Assembly: GCF_019636075.1 (NCBI RefSeq)
Contig: NZ_JAHBYG010000003.1
Coordinates: 62,001-126,000, forward strand
DNA length: 64,000 bases
Direction: 5' to 3'
DNA from: Ferrovibrio sp.
Lineage (GTDB): Bacteria; Pseudomonadota; Alphaproteobacteria; Ferrovibrionales; Ferrovibrionaceae
Shown here piece after piece: positions 11,759-19,280 of this stretch. The notes beneath the pieces were generated by a model that did not search any database, was not told where the DNA came from, and worked only from the letters and a program-made list of their open reading frames with translations. Positions within the stretch are counted from its first letter, which is position 1. Each line of letters opens with the position of its first letter. The translations under genes were made by a program, and so were the position numbers.

Positions 11759-13777
11759 TCAGGCCTGCAGGCCGAGGGATTCCAGGAAGAAGCGTTCGAA
11801 TTCGCGCACCACGCGCGGGTCTTCATACAGCAGATGGTTGGCGGCCAGGATACGGCTTCGCAGATCGGCGCGGAAATCCGCATCCTGTGCTACCCGCAGG
11901 GCGATTGCCACGTAATCGGCGGCATCCCGTGCCACCGGTTCCATGATGCCCATGCGGCGATACATACCCTGGGTGTGGCGGCCGCGCTGCTGGTCGCTGG
12001 GCAGGGTCACCACCACCGCGCCCTGCGACAGCGCCTCCAGCGATGTGTTCATGCCGTTGAAATGCACGGTATCCAGCACAACATCGGCTGCTGCCAGCAG
12101 GCTAAGGAAATCCGGCCCATCCTGCGGCGGCACCACCGATACGCGGTTCATCACCTCAGGTCCGGCCTTTGCCATGCGCCGCAGGGTGAGATCCGACCAG
12201 GTTTGCGGCCCCTGGGCAATCAGCACCAGCCGGCCTTCCGGATCGCGGCGCAGGATGTCGATGGCGATATCGTCGAAATCCGGATGGATTTTGAACAGAT
12301 GCTGCGGGCAGAGATAAATCCGGCCCTGCTGCGGCAGCGGCAACTCAGCGCGGCTCTTGCGCGGATTGGGATCGTCTGGCCGGTAGTAATAAGCCAGCGT
12401 GCCGAGATCGCGCAGCAGAAACAGCTTTTCGCTGTAATGCGCGGCGGCCTCGGGCAATTCGAACAGATCGTTGGAAATGAACCAATCCATGTTCGGTATG
12501 CCGGTGGTATCCGGATGGCCGAACGAAACGCATTGCACCGGCGCCAGCCGCGAAAAGGCCAGGAAATAGGTGTAGGGCTCCATGCCGATATCCTGGAAGA
12601 ACAGGATATCCAGTTCCAGCGCGGCCACAGCCTCGCGCGCAGCCTGCAATTTCTTCGGCAGCATGATGTGGTGGTCGGCGGATTCGCGGATGAAACGGGC
12701 GATATCGTCGTCGATGGCCGGCTGTACGAAAATCGCGGTGCTTTCGAAGCGGCTTTTATCCAACTGCGCCAGGATGCCGCGCGTGGTCTTGCCGATGGAA
12801 TGCCGGCGCAGGAATTGCGACAGGAAGCCGACCCGGATGCGTCGTGCGGGCGTGCCGAGACCAGGATGGCGCGGCCTGGCCACATGCGGCGCCTGCCAAC
12901 GCAGGGCAGGGCAGGCTTTTTCATACAGCCGCCCGATCCGCGCATGCACATCGCGGTTGTTGCGGCCATGATAGGCCATGAAGAAGTTGGCAGTGAACAC
13001 TTCATCTTCCGGCGCGCGCAACGGCGGCGTATCGGCCTCCAGCACGGCGATGGCGGCGAGCTGGCGCTGGCGTTCGGCCTCGATTTCGGCGCGGCCGGCC
13101 ACGATAGGATTGACGGTGAGCGCCCGCATGAAACGCAATCCGGGCTGCGGATCGATGGCAATCGCACGATCCCACATCACGCGGGCATCCTCGATACGGC
13201 CTTGCAGGCGCAGCAAATTGGCCAGGCTGCTCATCGCCTTCACATGGCGGGGATCCAGCGCTGCGGCCTGACGGAAGGCGGCAATCGCGCCGCCGGGATC
13301 GACATTCTGCAAGGCCAGGCCGAGATTGAACCAGCCATCGGCATCCGGCGCGATGCGCAGCGCTTGGCGATAGGCCGCTTCCGCCTCGTCGCGCATATTC
13401 TTCTCGCGATAGGCATTGCCGAGATTCTTGTGCGCGGCAACGAAATTAGGGTCGATCTTGATGGCGCGCTGTTGCGCCGCGATGGCTTCGTCCACCCGGC
13501 CCAGCCGCAGCAAGGCGATGCCGTAATTGGCCCAAGGGGCCGCCATACCGGGTGCGGCTGCATCGGATACGGCCTGCACCACCTTGCCGATCAATTCGGC
13601 GGCGGCGGCGTAATCATTGCGCTGCAGTGCCAGGATGCCCAGATGGTGCCAGGCCTGGCCATGATGCGGCCAATTCTGCAGCAATGCGCGATAGGCGGCT
13701 TCGGCCTCGGCCAGCTTACCCTGGCTATGCAGTTGCAAGGCATTGCGGAAAGCGGCGGTTTCGGCATCTTCTGCCAT
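11759..13777 (-). CDS. TPR + SPINDLY-type O-GlcNAc transferase-like glycosyltransferase (GT41)
   Basis: A 672-aa protein. Residues about 5-230 are tetratricopeptide repeats (e.g. WANYGIALLRLGRVDEAIAA). Residues about 314-672 are the GT-B catalytic region of the GT41 family: VGFLSQFLRRHSIG with the conserved His at 326, PVQCVSFGHPDTTG, then LDTVHFNGMNTSLEALSQG and a UDP-binding-like GRHTQGMYRRMG. Such enzymes add sugar to Ser/Thr of proteins, and in bacteria are often tied to flagellin or surface glycoproteins. It begins 4 bp after the stop of the 381-aa gene, as the last gene of a packed operon. The donor sugar and target are unknown. Confidence 0.85.
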   Translation of the reverse strand: MAEDAETAAFRNALQLHSQGKLAEAEAAYRALLQNWPHHGQAWHHLGILALQRNDYAAAAELIGKVVQAVSDAAAPGMAAPWANYGIALLRLGRVDEAIAAQQRAIKIDPNFVAAHKNLGNAYREKNMRDEAEAAYRQALRIAPDADGWFNLGLALQNVDPGGAIAAFRQAAALDPRHVKAMSSLANLLRLQGRIEDARVMWDRAIAIDPQPGLRFMRALTVNPIVAGRAEIEAERQRQLAAIAVLEADTPPLRAPEDEVFTANFFMAYHGRNNRDVHARIGRLYEKACPALRWQAPHVARPRHPGLGTPARRIRVGFLSQFLRRHSIGKTTRGILAQLDKSRFESTAIFVQPAIDDDIARFIRESADHHIMLPKKLQAAREAVAALELDILFFQDIGMEPYTYFLAFSRLAPVQCVSFGHPDTTGIPNMDWFISNDLFELPEAAAHYSEKLFLLRDLGTLAYYYRPDDPNPRKSRAELPLPQQGRIYLCPQHLFKIHPDFDDIAIDILRRDPEGRLVLIAQGPQTWSDLTLRRMAKAGPEVMNRVSVVPPQDGPDFLSLLAAADVVLDTVHFNGMNTSLEALSQGAVVVTLPSDQQRGRHTQGMYRRMGIMEPVARDAADYVAIALRVAQDADFRADLRSRILAANHLLYEDPRVVREFERFFLESLGLQA

Positions 13778-13781
13778 CGAC

Positions 13782-14927
13782 TTATTCCGCGTTGATGCGA
13801 TACAGGGTGTCGAGCAGATCCCACAAAGGCGTGGCAGGCAGGCGACGCAGCGTATACCGCTCGGTGGCGCGCTCCCACACCGCATGGGAATGGCTCAGTC
13901 GAGACAATGAATCGCCCAGCTCCCAGAACAGTTGCTTGGCATTGCGCAGGAAGTCCATGAACGGCCGGGCTTCCTTCTTGCGTAGGAAGAGTTCGTCGAA
14001 GCATTCGCGATAGCGTTCAAGCTTGTCGTTCACCTGGCGCCAATGGCCGGATAGATCGGCATAGGCCAGCTTGCGCAGCTCGGCCATGTCTTTCAGCAAT
14101 GCCGGATTGGCGCCATCGCGCGGCCGTGCCTCGCTGCCCAGCCAATCCAGCAGTTTCTGCCATTCGGCCCGCTGTTGGCTGAGTTCGCGGTCGTAGAAGA
14201 TGATGCCCTTCCAGGAATACACGATCTCCGGCGCGCGGGTGATGTCGATGCCGAAGGTCTGCGCAATCGGCTTCATCGCCGCGGCGTCCTTGGCATCCCA
14301 CAGAATCTGCGTCAGCCGCTCCACCGCGCTGGCTTCCACCTCGGCGCCTTCCGATGCGGCGAAGCGCGCCACCTTGGCCATCTTGTCGCGCACGAAAACC
14401 TTGATTGCATCCAGCTCGCCGGGCGGAAAGGCGAAATAGCCCTCATCCACTGCGATGCTTTCGATTTCCAGCTTGTCGCGCATCAGAAAGGGATCCAGCG
14501 AGGGCAGGCTGTCCAGCACATCCAGCACCGCGCGGTCGCGCCGGAAACCAGCCGGATCGCGCTTGCTCGACATGGCCAGTTGTTCGTCCAATGCCTGTTC
14601 CAGCTTGGCATCGGAAAGCAGGATGGTTTTGCCGCCTTCTTCCAGGTTGGCCTCGTTGAAGGGCAGATACAGCTTGGTCTGCACCGCGCGACTGTTTACC
14701 AGGCCATGCCGCTCATGAACCGGCGGCGCGTATTTCAGAATCACCAGCCGGTTGGCATTGCGGTTGGTGAAAAACGGTTGAAAGCCCTTCACCGGCCGGC
14801 TGGGGGCAGGGCGGCCCGGAAGATGCTCTTGATTGGCCAGCAATTCACGATGCTTGCGCTGCAGGTCGAACATGCGCGAAGAGCTTGCCCGCAGCAGGGC
14901 GCGCAAGGAATGATCGGAGATCGCCAT
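13782..14927 (-). CDS. Unrecognised 381-aa protein of the OGT/TylF operon
   Basis: I do not recognise this family. The protein looks soluble: no signal peptide, no membrane segment, and a probably mostly helical, charged C-terminal half (residues 290-360 rich in Lys, Arg, Glu). The N-terminal third has mixed strand-like stretches (NRLVILKYAPPV, TKLYLPF). There are no obvious catalytic motifs or cysteine clusters. Its ATG directly abuts the stop of the upstream methyltransferase (0-bp gap), and its stop lies 4 bp before the OGT start. Translational coupling, and a role in the same glycan-modifying process, are therefore likely. Reality of the gene is supported by this packing and normal codon use. 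Confidence 0.75.
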   Translation of the reverse strand: MAISDHSLRALLRASSSRMFDLQRKHRELLANQEHLPGRPAPSRPVKGFQPFFTNRNANRLVILKYAPPVHERHGLVNSRAVQTKLYLPFNEANLEEGGKTILLSDAKLEQALDEQLAMSSKRDPAGFRRDRAVLDVLDSLPSLDPFLMRDKLEIESIAVDEGYFAFPPGELDAIKVFVRDKMAKVARFAASEGAEVEASAVERLTQILWDAKDAAAMKPIAQTFGIDITRAPEIVYSWKGIIFYDRELSQQRAEWQKLLDWLGSEARPRDGANPALLKDMAELRKLAYADLSGHWRQVNDKLERYRECFDELFLRKKEARPFMDFLRNAKQLFWELGDSLSRLSHSHAVWERATERYTLRRLPATPLWDLLDTLYRINAE

Positions 14928-15674
14928 CTACTTGATCAGCAGGCCCTGCCCGGTGGGCAGTTCCAGCACTTGATAGCCGCGTGCGGCAAACCAGGCATCC
15001 TCGGCTCGCTGCTGCTGGTAATAGAAATTCCAGCCGTAATCATCGAGCACCAGGATGGCGCCGGGCGTCATGCGGTCGAACAGGATTTCCAGGGCGCCGA
15101 TTTCGGCCTCGGCGCTGTTCAGGTCGATATGCAGAAAGGCGATTTTTTCGGGCGCCACATCATGCAGCACGCCGGGCACGGCGCCGCGCGTGACGGTAAC
15201 GTTGCTGAAATCCTTGAAGCGGTTCAGCACCTTCTCATACAGATCGGCACCATGCTCTTCCATGGCATGGTGCGGCATGCTCTCGTCATGCTCGAACAGA
15301 TCGTAGAGATAATAGCGTTTGTCGGATTTATCGAAATCCAGGTATTCGCAGAGGATGCGCGCAGTGGTGCCCTTGTAGCAGGCGCATTCCACGAAATCGC
15401 CGTCGCGCTTCATGCCCTGCTGCGCAGCCCAGGCCAGCACCACCTGGCGCCACAGGATGGCGCGTTCGGTGGCTGTGCTGGCATGCTTGCGCACGGCATC
15501 CATCAGCTTCTGATTCTGCAGGAAACCGAGATTGCGGTTGAAGGTGAAGATGTTGTCGCCGGCATAGATGCCGCCATTGCGCACCTGTCGGATGGATTTG
15601 CGCATGCCATCGGCGAAGGCTTCTTCGTCCTTCAAACCGAAAAACACACCGACCATGTGGTTGGGCGATTCCAT
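14928..15674 (-). CDS. TylF/MycF-family class I methyltransferase (copy 1)
   Basis: A 248-aa protein related to macrocin O-methyltransferase, which uses S-adenosylmethionine to methylate sugar hydroxyls. Landmarks are GDFVECACYKGTTARIL (SAM-binding motif I), LYDLFEH, the metal-binding-like FLHIDLNSAEAE and AILVLDDYGW, and the C-terminal ELPTGQGLLIK. The ATG at 15674 gives the same N-terminus as the second copy 2.7 kb away. It follows the 514-aa gene by 50 bp and directly abuts the 381-aa gene. A sugar O-methyltransferase acting on the product of the neighbouring glycosyltransferase is the natural inference. Confidence 0.82.
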   Translation of the reverse strand: MESPNHMVGVFFGLKDEEAFADGMRKSIRQVRNGGIYAGDNIFTFNRNLGFLQNQKLMDAVRKHASTATERAILWRQVVLAWAAQQGMKRDGDFVECACYKGTTARILCEYLDFDKSDKRYYLYDLFEHDESMPHHAMEEHGADLYEKVLNRFKDFSNVTVTRGAVPGVLHDVAPEKIAFLHIDLNSAEAEIGALEILFDRMTPGAILVLDDYGWNFYYQQQRAEDAWFAARGYQVLELPTGQGLLIK

Positions 15675-15724
15675 GCCAACACTTTCCGCTGCCTGGACCT
15701 GGCTTGCAAGAGTCAGATTTGATT

Positions 15725-17269
15725 TTAGGCGCCGTCCATCCAGTTTCGGTGCAGCGAGCCACGCCAGGCGCCGAAGGCCAGCACCGGCTTGCGCCAACCC
15801 GGCGGCCGGTCACGGGCGGGCAATGCCACCGATAATATCCGCGCATTGCCCAACCAGCCGCCGCCGCCTTGCTGGTGATTGAAGGCCTCCAGTGCGGATC
15901 GGTCGGCGGCCAGCAGCAGATAGGCGATATCTAGGCCATCCAGCAGCGGCAGCAGGCGTTCGGTGGCGGCGGCTTCCTCGCCGGGCGGCAGGGTGATACA
16001 GGCTAGGTCGAAGGCGCGGCCGCGCAAGGCGTTCAGCAGATCGGGCCGCCAGGCGGCGGTTTTCACATCCTCGCGGCCGGCAAAGGCGGCCAAGCGTTCG
16101 GCGCTGGCGGCTGCGGCCGGATCGGAATACAGCAGCAGGGCCTGGTCCAGCAATTCCGGCGGCAATGCCAGCGGCAGGCAGGCATCGCGGGCTTCGGCGA
16201 TCAGGATACGGCGGATCGGCTTCACCGCGGCCTGCACGGCCAGCAGATCCAGCGCCAGTTTTTCCATCGCGGCCGCCGGGCGGGGATGGGTTTGCTGATC
16301 GGCCGGGCGGATCGAGACGCGGCTGTTGGCGGTTTTGTCGTCATCCTGCCGGGCGGCGGTATAGGCCACCACGCGGGCACGGCCTTCCGCAGCGGCGGCT
16401 TCCATCGCGGGCGTAAGCAGCCCGATGCGGCGCAGGCTGTCCAGCAAGGCTGGATCCAGCGGTGCCACGGCATTGATGTCGGTATTGTCGATCAACGACG
16501 CCGTGGTGGGCACGAAATCTATACCGCAGCTTTCGCATAGCGCACGCAGGCCGGCATTGAAGGCCACCACCAGGGCCTGGCGCTCTGGCAACTGCGCCGG
16601 CGCTGCGCCCAGGCAGGCCAGCCGGCCGCGTTGCAGCGGCTGGATATCACTGAACAGAATTTCATAGCGGCTGAGCCAGCGTCGCAGCAATTCCTGCCGC
16701 GCTTCGGCGTTCTGGCTGATGCGGCCGGTCATCTGATGCGGTTCGGCGGCCAGCGCCAGCAGCAGCGGCTTGGTATTGTCCAGCCGGCGCAGCGCGCGTT
16801 GCATGTTGCGGCGGGTTTCGCGGAATCCACGTTCAAGATGCAGCCAGGCCGGTGCTGCCTCGCCGATGAAGATCGGGAAGAAGCAGGATTTTTCGGCAAA
16901 GGCAAAAACCCGGCGGTTGCCGATCACGTTGATCCAGCCCGTTGCTTCGTCGCCATCGGTGGCATGATCCAGCAAGACGCTGCGCGGCAGGGCGGGGGCT
17001 GCCACCGGCAAGGTGACGCGCAGAAAATCGCCGAGTGCCAGTGCGGCTTCCGGCGACAGCGTGTTCGTGGAAATCGGCTCCGCCAAGGCATTCAGCGCTG
17101 TTTTGGCCGGCCATGAACTGAATAACCGCGTCAGTACGATTGCGGCTTCCGCATTTTCCCGCGCCACCAGATGCTGGCCGGCGCGCCGGGCTAGATCGGC
17201 GGCTAGATCGGCGGCCAGATCGGTTGCTTGATCGGCGGCATTGTGCGGTTTGCGTTTGGGCGCACTCAT
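15725..17269 (-). CDS. Unrecognised 514-aa protein of the OGT/TylF operon
   Basis: No family recognised with confidence. After an Ala/Asp-rich N-terminal repeat (residues about 11-28), the first half has strand-loop patterns reminiscent of SGNH-type esterase domains (WINVIGNRRVFAFAEKS, KPLLLALAAEPH, GIDFVPTTASLIDN). A catalytic Ser block is not evident. The second half (about 360-514) has the alternating strand/helix layout of a degenerate Rossmann or methyltransferase fold (RRILIAEARD, FDLACITLP, IAYLLLAADR). The start at 17269 overlaps the hydrolase stop by 4 bp (ATGA), which fixes the start and implies coupled translation. It could be a carbohydrate-modifying or scaffold protein. Confidence 0.72.
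   Translation of the reverse strand: MSAPKRKPHNAADQATDLAADLAADLARRAGQHLVARENAEAAIVLTRLFSSWPAKTALNALAEPISTNTLSPEAALALGDFLRVTLPVAAPALPRSVLLDHATDGDEATGWINVIGNRRVFAFAEKSCFFPIFIGEAAPAWLHLERGFRETRRNMQRALRRLDNTKPLLLALAAEPHQMTGRISQNAEARQELLRRWLSRYEILFSDIQPLQRGRLACLGAAPAQLPERQALVVAFNAGLRALCESCGIDFVPTTASLIDNTDINAVAPLDPALLDSLRRIGLLTPAMEAAAAEGRARVVAYTAARQDDDKTANSRVSIRPADQQTHPRPAAAMEKLALDLLAVQAAVKPIRRILIAEARDACLPLALPPELLDQALLLYSDPAAAASAERLAAFAGREDVKTAAWRPDLLNALRGRAFDLACITLPPGEEAAATERLLPLLDGLDIAYLLLAADRSALEAFNHQQGGGGWLGNARILSVALPARDRPPGWRKPVLAFGAWRGSLHRNWMDGA
17191..17238. repeat. In-frame 12-bp tandem repeat x 4
   Basis: Four 12-bp units (CTAGATCGGCGG and variants) in the 5' end of the 514-aa gene. They encode a repeated Ala-Ala-Asp-Leu-like tetrapeptide. 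The multiple of three keeps the frame, so copy-number change would only lengthen the protein. Confidence 0.8.
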
Positions 17270-18093
17270 GTCAGCTCCGCGATGAAGCTGCGGATCGCGT
17301 CGGCACAGGCTTCCGGCTTTTCCACCAGCAGGGTGTGGCCGCAATCCTCGATGCGGCGGATGCTCACACGATCCGGATAAAGCCGACGCAGCAGATAGAG
17401 ATCGAATTCATCCAGGCAGCAGGGCACGCGGATTTCGGCGGTGCGGGCAGGAAACAGCGGCTCGCTGCCGGTGAGCACCAGGCAGGGCATCTGCAATTCA
17501 TCCAGCAGGCGATAATAATGCCGTTCGCCGATCACTTCGCCGGTTTCGCTCATGCCGAACATAGGTTCCGACAGGTCGGCCATCGCACGTATCGAGCGGC
17601 CCTCGCGGGCCATCTGGCGCATGGTGGCGCGCAAGGCCCATTGTTTAGAGCAGGTGAGCGGCGGATCGGCCAGCACCAGGGCTGAGATGTTCAAGCGTTG
17701 ATCCAGCGCCGTGCGTAAGGCGATCAGCCCGCCCATCGATTCACCCACCAGCACCGCATCGCGGCCGCCGAAGCGGCGGCGCAGCAGGCTGGCGATTTCG
17801 CCGGCATATTCGGCCAGCGAATAATCCAGCGGGCGCTCCGAGCCGCCATGGCCCGGCAGGTCGCAGAAGGCGCGTTCGAAATCGGCATAGGCCGGCGCAA
17901 TCGGCAGCAACGAATCCTTGTTGCGCAGGGCGCCATGCAGAAACAGCAGCAATGGCCGCTGATCCGCATCGGATGCCTCGCCGGCAAAATTGCGAAGCGT
18001 GATGGTGGTTTGCCTGCAGATCACGCGTTCGTCCTGCGCGTCTGGAATCATATATTCTTCTGCCGCCGTTGCGCCGCCGCGTGTTGCCGTCAC
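17266..18093 (-). CDS. Alpha/beta-hydrolase fold protein
   Basis: A 275-aa hydrolase. The oxyanion motif is LHGALRN (HG), the nucleophile elbow is GESMGG with the catalytic Ser, and the likely catalytic His is in DCGHTLLVEKP near the C-terminus. The substrate is unknown; esterase or thioesterase activity is possible. The GTG start at 18093 has GGAGGGA upstream. An ATG at 18051 is the alternative. The stop overlaps the start of the 514-aa protein, so it is the first gene of the tightly coupled five-gene set. A sugar-deacylation role would fit the context but is inference. Confidence 0.8.
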   Translation of the reverse strand: MTATRGGATAAEEYMIPDAQDERVICRQTTITLRNFAGEASDADQRPLLLFLHGALRNKDSLLPIAPAYADFERAFCDLPGHGGSERPLDYSLAEYAGEIASLLRRRFGGRDAVLVGESMGGLIALRTALDQRLNISALVLADPPLTCSKQWALRATMRQMAREGRSIRAMADLSEPMFGMSETGEVIGERHYYRLLDELQMPCLVLTGSEPLFPARTAEIRVPCCLDEFDLYLLRRLYPDRVSIRRIEDCGHTLLVEKPEACADAIRSFIAELT

Positions 18094-18330
18094 CGGCTCG
18101 TCCCTCCGTTTTCCCGATCCGGCGCCAATGCGATGAATCGTGCCGATGCTGTGAAGCGCATCTGCACATGGCTGATGGGATCGTCACGCCGAAAAACCGG
18201 CGAATGGGTAAGAATTTTCGTTCGCTGCATTAACGCAGCAAAATCATCCGCTCGCATAGTAGCGGCGAGGGGATGAGCGCGCAACCGCGAATGGTGCGCG
18301 CAATGCTTGCAGATTTTTAATCGGCGGGCG

Positions 18331-19083
18331 TTATTTTATCAGCAGACCTTGGCCGGTGGGCAATTCCAGCACGTGATAGCCGCGTTTCGCAAACCAGGCA
18401 TCTTCCGCCAGCTTTTGTGCGCGATAATTCAGCCAGCCGTAATCATCCAGCACCAGCATGGCGCCCGGCAGCATGCGGTCGAACAACAGCTCCAGCGCGC
18501 CGATTTCGGCATCGGCATTGTTGAGGTCGAGATGCATGAAGGCGATTTTCTCGGGCGCTGCTTCATGCAGCACGGCGGGCACAGCGCCGCGCGTGATGCG
18601 TACATTGGGGGTGTCGGCGAAACGTGCCTTCACCTGTTCATACAAGCCATCGCCATGTTCGGGCATGGCATGATGCGCCATGCTCTCGTCATGTTCGAAC
18701 AGATCGTAGAGCCAGTAGGTCTTGTCGCGTTTGCCGAAATCCAGCGTATCGCAAAGGATGCGCGCGCTGGTGCCCTTGTAGCAGGCGCATTCCACGAAAT
18801 CGCCATCCAGCCGCAGGCCCTGGCGCGCCGCCCAGGCCAGCACGGCATGGCGCCAGATCAGCGCCTTCTCCACGCGGGTTTCCGAATGCCGCCGCACCGC
18901 TTCGAAAAACGGCGTGTCGTCCAGGAAGCTCAGATTGCGGCCGAAGGTGAAGAGATTGTCGCCATAGAACACCCCGCCCATTTTGGCGGCTTCGGCGGCT
19001 TGCTGCAGGCCGGCGCCGAATTGGTCCTTCTCGGCGGGGTCGATGCCGAAGAAAATGCCGATTGTGTAGTTGGGCGCTGCCAT
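18331..19083 (-). CDS. TylF/MycF-family class I methyltransferase (copy 2)
   Basis: A 250-aa paralogue of the copy at 14928-15674. The motifs GDFVECACYKGTSARIL, LYDLFEHDES, AFMHLDLNNADAE and AMLVLDDYGW match closely, as does the identical ELPTGQGLLIK C-terminus. It probably methylates a sugar hydroxyl. It is separated from the hydrolase gene by 237 bp, so it may be its own transcription unit or the first gene of the locus. Its upstream region holds 20-bp tandem repeats and then a tRNA-Val. The two copies could act at different positions of one glycan. Confidence 0.82.
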   Translation of the reverse strand: MAAPNYTIGIFFGIDPAEKDQFGAGLQQAAEAAKMGGVFYGDNLFTFGRNLSFLDDTPFFEAVRRHSETRVEKALIWRHAVLAWAARQGLRLDGDFVECACYKGTSARILCDTLDFGKRDKTYWLYDLFEHDESMAHHAMPEHGDGLYEQVKARFADTPNVRITRGAVPAVLHEAAPEKIAFMHLDLNNADAEIGALELLFDRMLPGAMLVLDDYGWLNYRAQKLAEDAWFAKRGYHVLELPTGQGLLIK

Positions 19084-19100: not shown

Positions 19101-19180
19101 CTGGGCGATTCGGCGCAAGCCCAGCTTCTCCGGCGGAAGCCCAGGCACTCCGGCGGAAGCCCAGGCACTCCGGCGTAAAG
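19101..19180. repeat. Tandem repeat, 20 bp x 4
   Basis: Four 20-bp units between the second TylF-like gene and tRNA-Val: 19101-19120 (diverged), 19121-19140, 19141-19160 and 19161-19180. The core is CCAGGCACTCCGGCGGAAGC. The middle two are the most alike. They lie in the presumed leader of the methyltransferase gene. Confidence 0.8.
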
Positions 19181-19205: not shown

Positions 19206-19280
19206 TGGTGGGCGGTACAAGGATCGAACTTGTGACCCCTACCATGTCAAGGTAGTGCTCTACCGCTGAGCTAACCGCCC
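19206..19280 (-). tRNA. tRNA-Val (anticodon GAC), CCA encoded
   Basis: The minus strand folds as a full cloverleaf. The acceptor GGGCGGT pairs with ACCGCCC. The D-arm is GCTC...GAGC. The anticodon stem is CTACC/GGTAG with loop TTGACAT (anticodon GAC). The T-arm is ACAAG TTCGATC CTTGT. Discriminator A and an encoded CCA follow. Confidence 0.96.

Follow-up and report, generated by a model that had tools for sequence, protein, structure and literature searches.

A TPR-GT41 glycosyltransferase beside paired TylF-type methyltransferases at a tRNA-Val site of Ferrovibrio: a candidate cassette for protein O-glycosylation with a methylated sugar

TylF, MycF and NovP are sugar O-methyltransferases of antibiotic biosynthesis, and enzymes of the GT41 family include human OGT, Xanthomonas XcOGT and the HMW1C/NGT N-glucosyltransferases. 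The TPR-glycosyltransferase protein FlmG of Caulobacter crescentus glycosylates flagellins with pseudaminic acid (PMC7591256), while in Pseudomonas syringae deletion of the methyltransferase VioM, encoded in the viosamine island, leaves flagellin glycopeptides 14 Da lighter (PMC3927599).

The locus described here, which lies in a window of 64,000 nucleotides of Ferrovibrio sp. DNA, is best read as a variant of the known cytoplasmic TPR/GT41-type glycosylation. Its OGT-like glycosyltransferase (OGT below) resembles FlmG: both are soluble alphaproteobacterial proteins with a TPR region at the N-terminus (target-binding in FlmG) and a GT-B glycosyltransferase domain at the C-terminus; unlike FlmG, it is accompanied by TylF methyltransferases, has no flagellin neighbour and has a CDP-glucose pathway as the likely source of its sugar. 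With human OGT, XcOGT and HMW1C/NGT it shares the GT41 fold, as judged by profile, together with the positions of the catalytic-site His and Lys, and with OGT also the TPR repeats, but it falls far below the cut-off of the NCBIfam NGT equivalog for HMW1C/NGT N-glucosyltransferases (59.9 bits against 1000). The two methyltransferases of the locus agree with TylF/MycF/NovP in family profile and in metal-site Asp residues, yet their neighbours are protein glycosylation genes rather than macrolide or aminocoumarin genes. The viosamine island (VioM, VioT) likewise clusters a glycosyltransferase with a methyltransferase dedicated to a protein-glycan sugar; there, however, the pathway is that of dTDP-viosamine and the target is flagellin (PMC3927599). 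The most useful outcomes, on this best reading, are the general pairing of GT41 with TylF, fusions included, and the protein family represented by U381.

In the genome from which the window was taken (G000; 4.0 Mb in 85 contigs, 98.7% complete) the cassette is found on contig 23, downstream of a tRNA-Val (GAC) gene that was called by ARAGORN on the minus strand (19206-19280) and marks the conserved left edge of the site at which the cassette lies. Six minus-strand genes follow, whose open reading frames and junctions were all confirmed: TylF1 (18331-19083, 250 aa), an alpha/beta hydrolase (17266-18051, 261 aa), U514 (15725-17269, 514 aa), TylF2 (14928-15674, 248 aa), U381 (13782-14927, 381 aa) and OGT (11759-13777, 672 aa). 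The tight packing claimed by the initial annotation was recovered at every junction it had named, namely an ATGA overlap between hydrolase and U514, 0 bp between TylF2 and U381, whose ATG directly follows the TylF2 stop codon, and 4 bp between U381 and OGT; the gaps from TylF1 to the hydrolase ATG and from U514 to TylF2 measure 279 bp and 50 bp, respectively. The hydrolase, ending at 17266, may start at the ATG at 18051 or at a GTG at 18093 (275 aa), and for OGT the ATG at 13777 is the most likely start, an upstream ATG yielding a 708-aa open reading frame that overlaps U381. Codon use is coding-like in all six genes, and promoter-like and terminator-like sites across the region show no excess over chance. 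The leader between tRNA-Val and TylF1 carries a 20-bp tandem repeat (window 19111-19175, 3.2 copies, 91% matches) for which inspection by eye of the leaders at related loci gave no counterpart.

The families assigned from the letters alone were upheld by Pfam, which places TylF1 and TylF2 above the PF05711 cut-off of 23 bits (34.2 and 31.2 bits), the hydrolase in PF12697 (68.9 bits) and OGT in PF13844, Glyco_transf_41 (76.1 bits against a curated cut-off of 25), with several TPR families above cut-off at about residues 40-250 of OGT; two proteins had been said to lack a recognised family, and U381 and U514 do remain below every cut-off in Pfam, NCBIfam and PHROGs. In the cassette OGT, His326 aligns with the OGT His and Lys496 is likewise placed at the UDP-binding Lys, the Lys having been assigned by eye; both residues are invariant in the three cassette OGTs and correspond to His498 and Lys842 of human OGT. 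TylF1 and TylF2 are 65% identical to each other, and their residues D184, D211 and D212 (Asp ... Asp-Asp), invariant in eight sequences, align with Asp residues of 4cdz/5i10 and presumably bind the metal. The Ferrovibrio TylF copies form one clade (support 84/88), and the pattern of the pair looks as it would after a duplication within the Ferrovibrio lineage.

All seven genomes of the genus that were looked at have the tRNA-Val (GAC) gene at this site, with or without the cassette. In G003, G004 and G007 the site holds TylF-TylF-U381-OGT without the hydrolase and without U514, the OGT orthologues of related Ferrovibrio genomes being 65-66% identical and the U381 orthologues at the same site in these three 62-64% identical; in two of them, G004 and G007, U381 and OGT are separated by a chemoreceptor gene (the G004 contig stops inside this gene, with the OGT of G004 on another contig), and in the cassette-free G001, G002 and G006 chemoreceptor genes are found at the site. 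Because the hydrolase and U514 are absent from the three syntenic loci, the core cassette is, on comparative grounds, TylF1, TylF2, U381 and OGT, with hydrolase-U514 a local insertion. The initial annotation had proposed a unit of all six genes and had named a lack of co-occurrence across related genomes, beforehand, as the observation that could refute it: co-occurrence is found for four of the six genes, those of the core, and not for the hydrolase and U514, so that the six-gene unit did not survive. U514 is an orphan: searches of 60 relatives, 384 further genomes of the class and 72,556 plasmids gave no convincing homologue (two weak partial matches, at about 20 bits, were put down to chance), PDB sequences gave no match, and its single-sequence AlphaFold model (pLDDT 38) is unusable.

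Comparison of five to six flanking genes puts the four carriers at 76-97% identity to one another and at 69% to two non-carriers, and the co-occurrence inside Ferrovibrio may therefore reflect one inherited event. What is informative within the genus is that the order TylF-TylF-U381-OGT has been kept in G003, G004 and G007 although protein identity has dropped to about 60-70% and the surroundings have changed. In G004, tRNA-Val is separated from the cassette by two small neighbouring genes that may encode a toxin and its antitoxin (L032, 14492-15153), which points to the tRNA-Val site as a hot spot for insertion; a search for an island boundary through duplication of the tRNA 3' end gave no repeat longer than 11 bp.

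Beyond Ferrovibrio, the association of the two enzyme types was followed in a scan of a genome collection through the best 80 TylF relatives, 78 of which are outside the genus. Of these 78 loci, 34 hold a GT41 gene, against a single one of the 58 control loci (Fisher 4e-9). Ten hold flagellin and 16 hold rfbF together with rfbG, of the CDP-glucose sugar pathway, neither of which turned up in the controls (0 of 58 in each case). The p values are indicative, as the controls are about 13 kb long and from Alphaproteobacteria only, the TylF loci span 3-21 kb and kin species are not independent. Single open reading frames that encode GT41 and then TylF were found seven times, in Oxalobacteraceae, Geobacteraceae, Desulfobulbaceae and a deltaproteobacterial MAG; the one fusion scanned with Pfam contains TPR, Glyco_transf_41 and TylF, and its gene is just ahead of a flagellin gene. 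In Achromobacter and Acidovorax the TylF relatives occur together with GT41, CDP-sugar genes and flagellin, Chromatium has a single operon rfbF-rfbG-rfbC-epimerase-CmcI methyltransferase-TylF-GT41-GT41, and a Sphingomonadaceae contig has an RTX protein followed by GT41-GT41-TylF in a row. Two observations weigh against reading the cassette in this light: 44 of the 78 relatives have no GT41 in the retrieved DNA, in part because contigs are short, and the cassette OGT is distant from the TylF-linked GT41s found elsewhere (27-164 bits). On the sequence evidence OGT and TylF are linked strongly and generally, across several phyla, which connects TylF-type methyltransferases, familiar from the sugars of antibiotics, with protein glycosylation of the TPR-GT41 type, and the natural fusion enzymes make the pathway testable in vitro. 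We found no description of the pairing in the open literature on GT41 with flagellin methylation or TylF, although one may exist elsewhere. At a Methylococcaceae locus (L285, 7772-14297) a GT41 protein with a C-terminal DUF4160 is followed by TylF, with a chemoreceptor three genes further.

A candidate source of the sugar is encoded at another locus of the same genome. The operon on contig 19 comprises rfbF (cytidylyltransferase type), rfbG (4,6-dehydratase type), an rfbC-type epimerase, a hexapeptide acyltransferase, a methyltransferase-like protein, an epimerase/reductase and an RMNT_CmcI (rhamnosyl-O-methyltransferase/CmcI-type) O-methyltransferase. It is syntenic in G003, and the same operon type occurs in G004 and G009 (RfbG 73-74% identical to that of G000), whereas the cassette-free G001, G002, G005, G006 and G008 have another version (RfbG 43% identical). 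Neither type was found in G007 (87% complete), which weighs against our preferred reading below, and the assembly of G009 (72% complete) contains the operon and yielded no cassette.

The fusion proteins, the linkage across phyla and the matching CDP-sugar operon in the same genome are the reasons why a single protein-glycan pathway very probably unites OGT with the TylF methyltransferases; the common sugar-modification pathway proposed by the initial annotation thus finds support for OGT and both TylFs and none for the hydrolase and U514. In our preferred reading, to which we give a probability of about 0.65, the core cassette would form the enzymatic half of a cytoplasmic system for protein O-glycosylation that uses an O-methylated deoxysugar, with the sugar supplied from elsewhere in the genome. 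A CDP-glucose-derived deoxysugar would be made by the contig 19 operon; the TPR domain of OGT would bind the target and its GT41 domain would join the sugar to an amino-acid side chain, probably that of Ser/Thr; the two TylFs would O-methylate the sugar before or after transfer, a step at which the CmcI-type enzyme may also act; and the modified protein would then be exported. The joint action of these loci, the donor sugar, the order of the steps and the target are what we infer from the domains, the conserved cassette, the linkage and fusions, and the operon.

U381, perhaps an accessory or substrate protein of the cassette, represents, as far as sequence comparison goes, an undescribed and widespread alphaproteobacterial family for which the libraries searched contain no curated model. 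Of 385 genomes of the class, 52 have matches, with up to eight copies in a single genome; some of these matches are weak and belong to a sister family (L200-L209; about 350 aa, alphaproteobacterial, uncharacterised) that profile comparison places as a distant relative (98.3%, E 2e-14). A widespread protein family, comprising U381 and its sister family, is newly brought out here. The predicted structure of U381 is confident (pLDDT 91); its model had no Foldseek match under E 0.4 against PDB and viral models, its profile had none among PDB sequences, and a likeness to a designed helical repeat, the best found with VIA-align (Z 8.4), was set aside as within the chance range for helical bundles.

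The genomic company of U381 raises another reading, in which OGT and TylF would place the methylated sugar on U381 or on a neighbouring chemoreceptor and cytoplasmic O-glycosylation would thereby tune chemotaxis, making U381 a new class of chemosensory accessory protein. It draws on the chemoreceptor between U381 and OGT in G004 and G007, on a U381 relative within a complete cheZ-cheA-cheW-cheB-cheR cluster (L116), on a sister-family gene that heads a cheW-cheY-cheR cluster (L200) and on further U381 relatives beside chemoreceptors and an Hpt-like protein. Outside the cassette U381 is either solitary or close to chemotaxis genes, and it matches no curated family of chemotaxis proteins. Against the reading stand family-wide neighbour tallies that do not put signalling and chemotaxis genes convincingly above controls, chemoreceptors that occupy the tRNA-Val site also without the cassette, and the finding of no U381 near TylF outside the genus among the loci of the best 80 TylF relatives; we regard it as a very improbable account. 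That the TylFs and OGT have separate functions and came together accidentally, at a hot spot of insertion beside tRNA-Val, is somewhat less far-fetched and still unlikely: the site is indeed variable (cassette, hydrolase-U514 insertion, the small extra genes of G004, chemoreceptors in other genomes), and a single insertion could explain the pattern in the genus, given that the carriers are related, but such an origin sits poorly with the fusion and linkage of GT41 and TylF across numerous unrelated bacteria and with a cassette order that outlasted changes around it.

A more serious competitor, which we regard as possible and hold only tentatively, accepts the chemistry of O-glycosylation with a methylated sugar and assigns it to flagellin, the cassette then being an extra glycosyltransferase/methyltransferase set beside the flagellin-adjacent TPR proteins. 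Close TylF relatives in Achromobacter, Acidovorax and others are found with GT41 near flagellin genes, and the genome of the window encodes two flagellins; these, however, are on contig 85, away from the cassette, and a flagellin gene there is already flanked by four TPR proteins comparable to FlmG in size (483-563 aa; L187, 5489-13623), in which Pfam recognises only TPR and no GT41. Similar TPR genes adjoin flagellin in G009 (72% complete), where no cassette was found. Neither a flagellin nor an adhesin gene adjoins the cassette, an absence that also weighs against our preferred reading of a protein O-glycosylation cassette. For that reading we rank flagellin second among the candidate targets, and a giant secreted protein encoded on contig 18 (3189 aa as called; L047, 1275-20000, also L189 and L198) is the leading candidate, because its tandem-GT41 partner occurs in exactly the same genomes as the cassette. 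The giant protein is encoded together with a type I secretion pair and this tandem-GT41 protein, which comprises several GT41 units in an open frame of 1775 residues and whose orthologues, 77-78% identical over 1000 residues, were found only in G003, G004 and G007, making up with G000 the same four genomes that carry the cassette.
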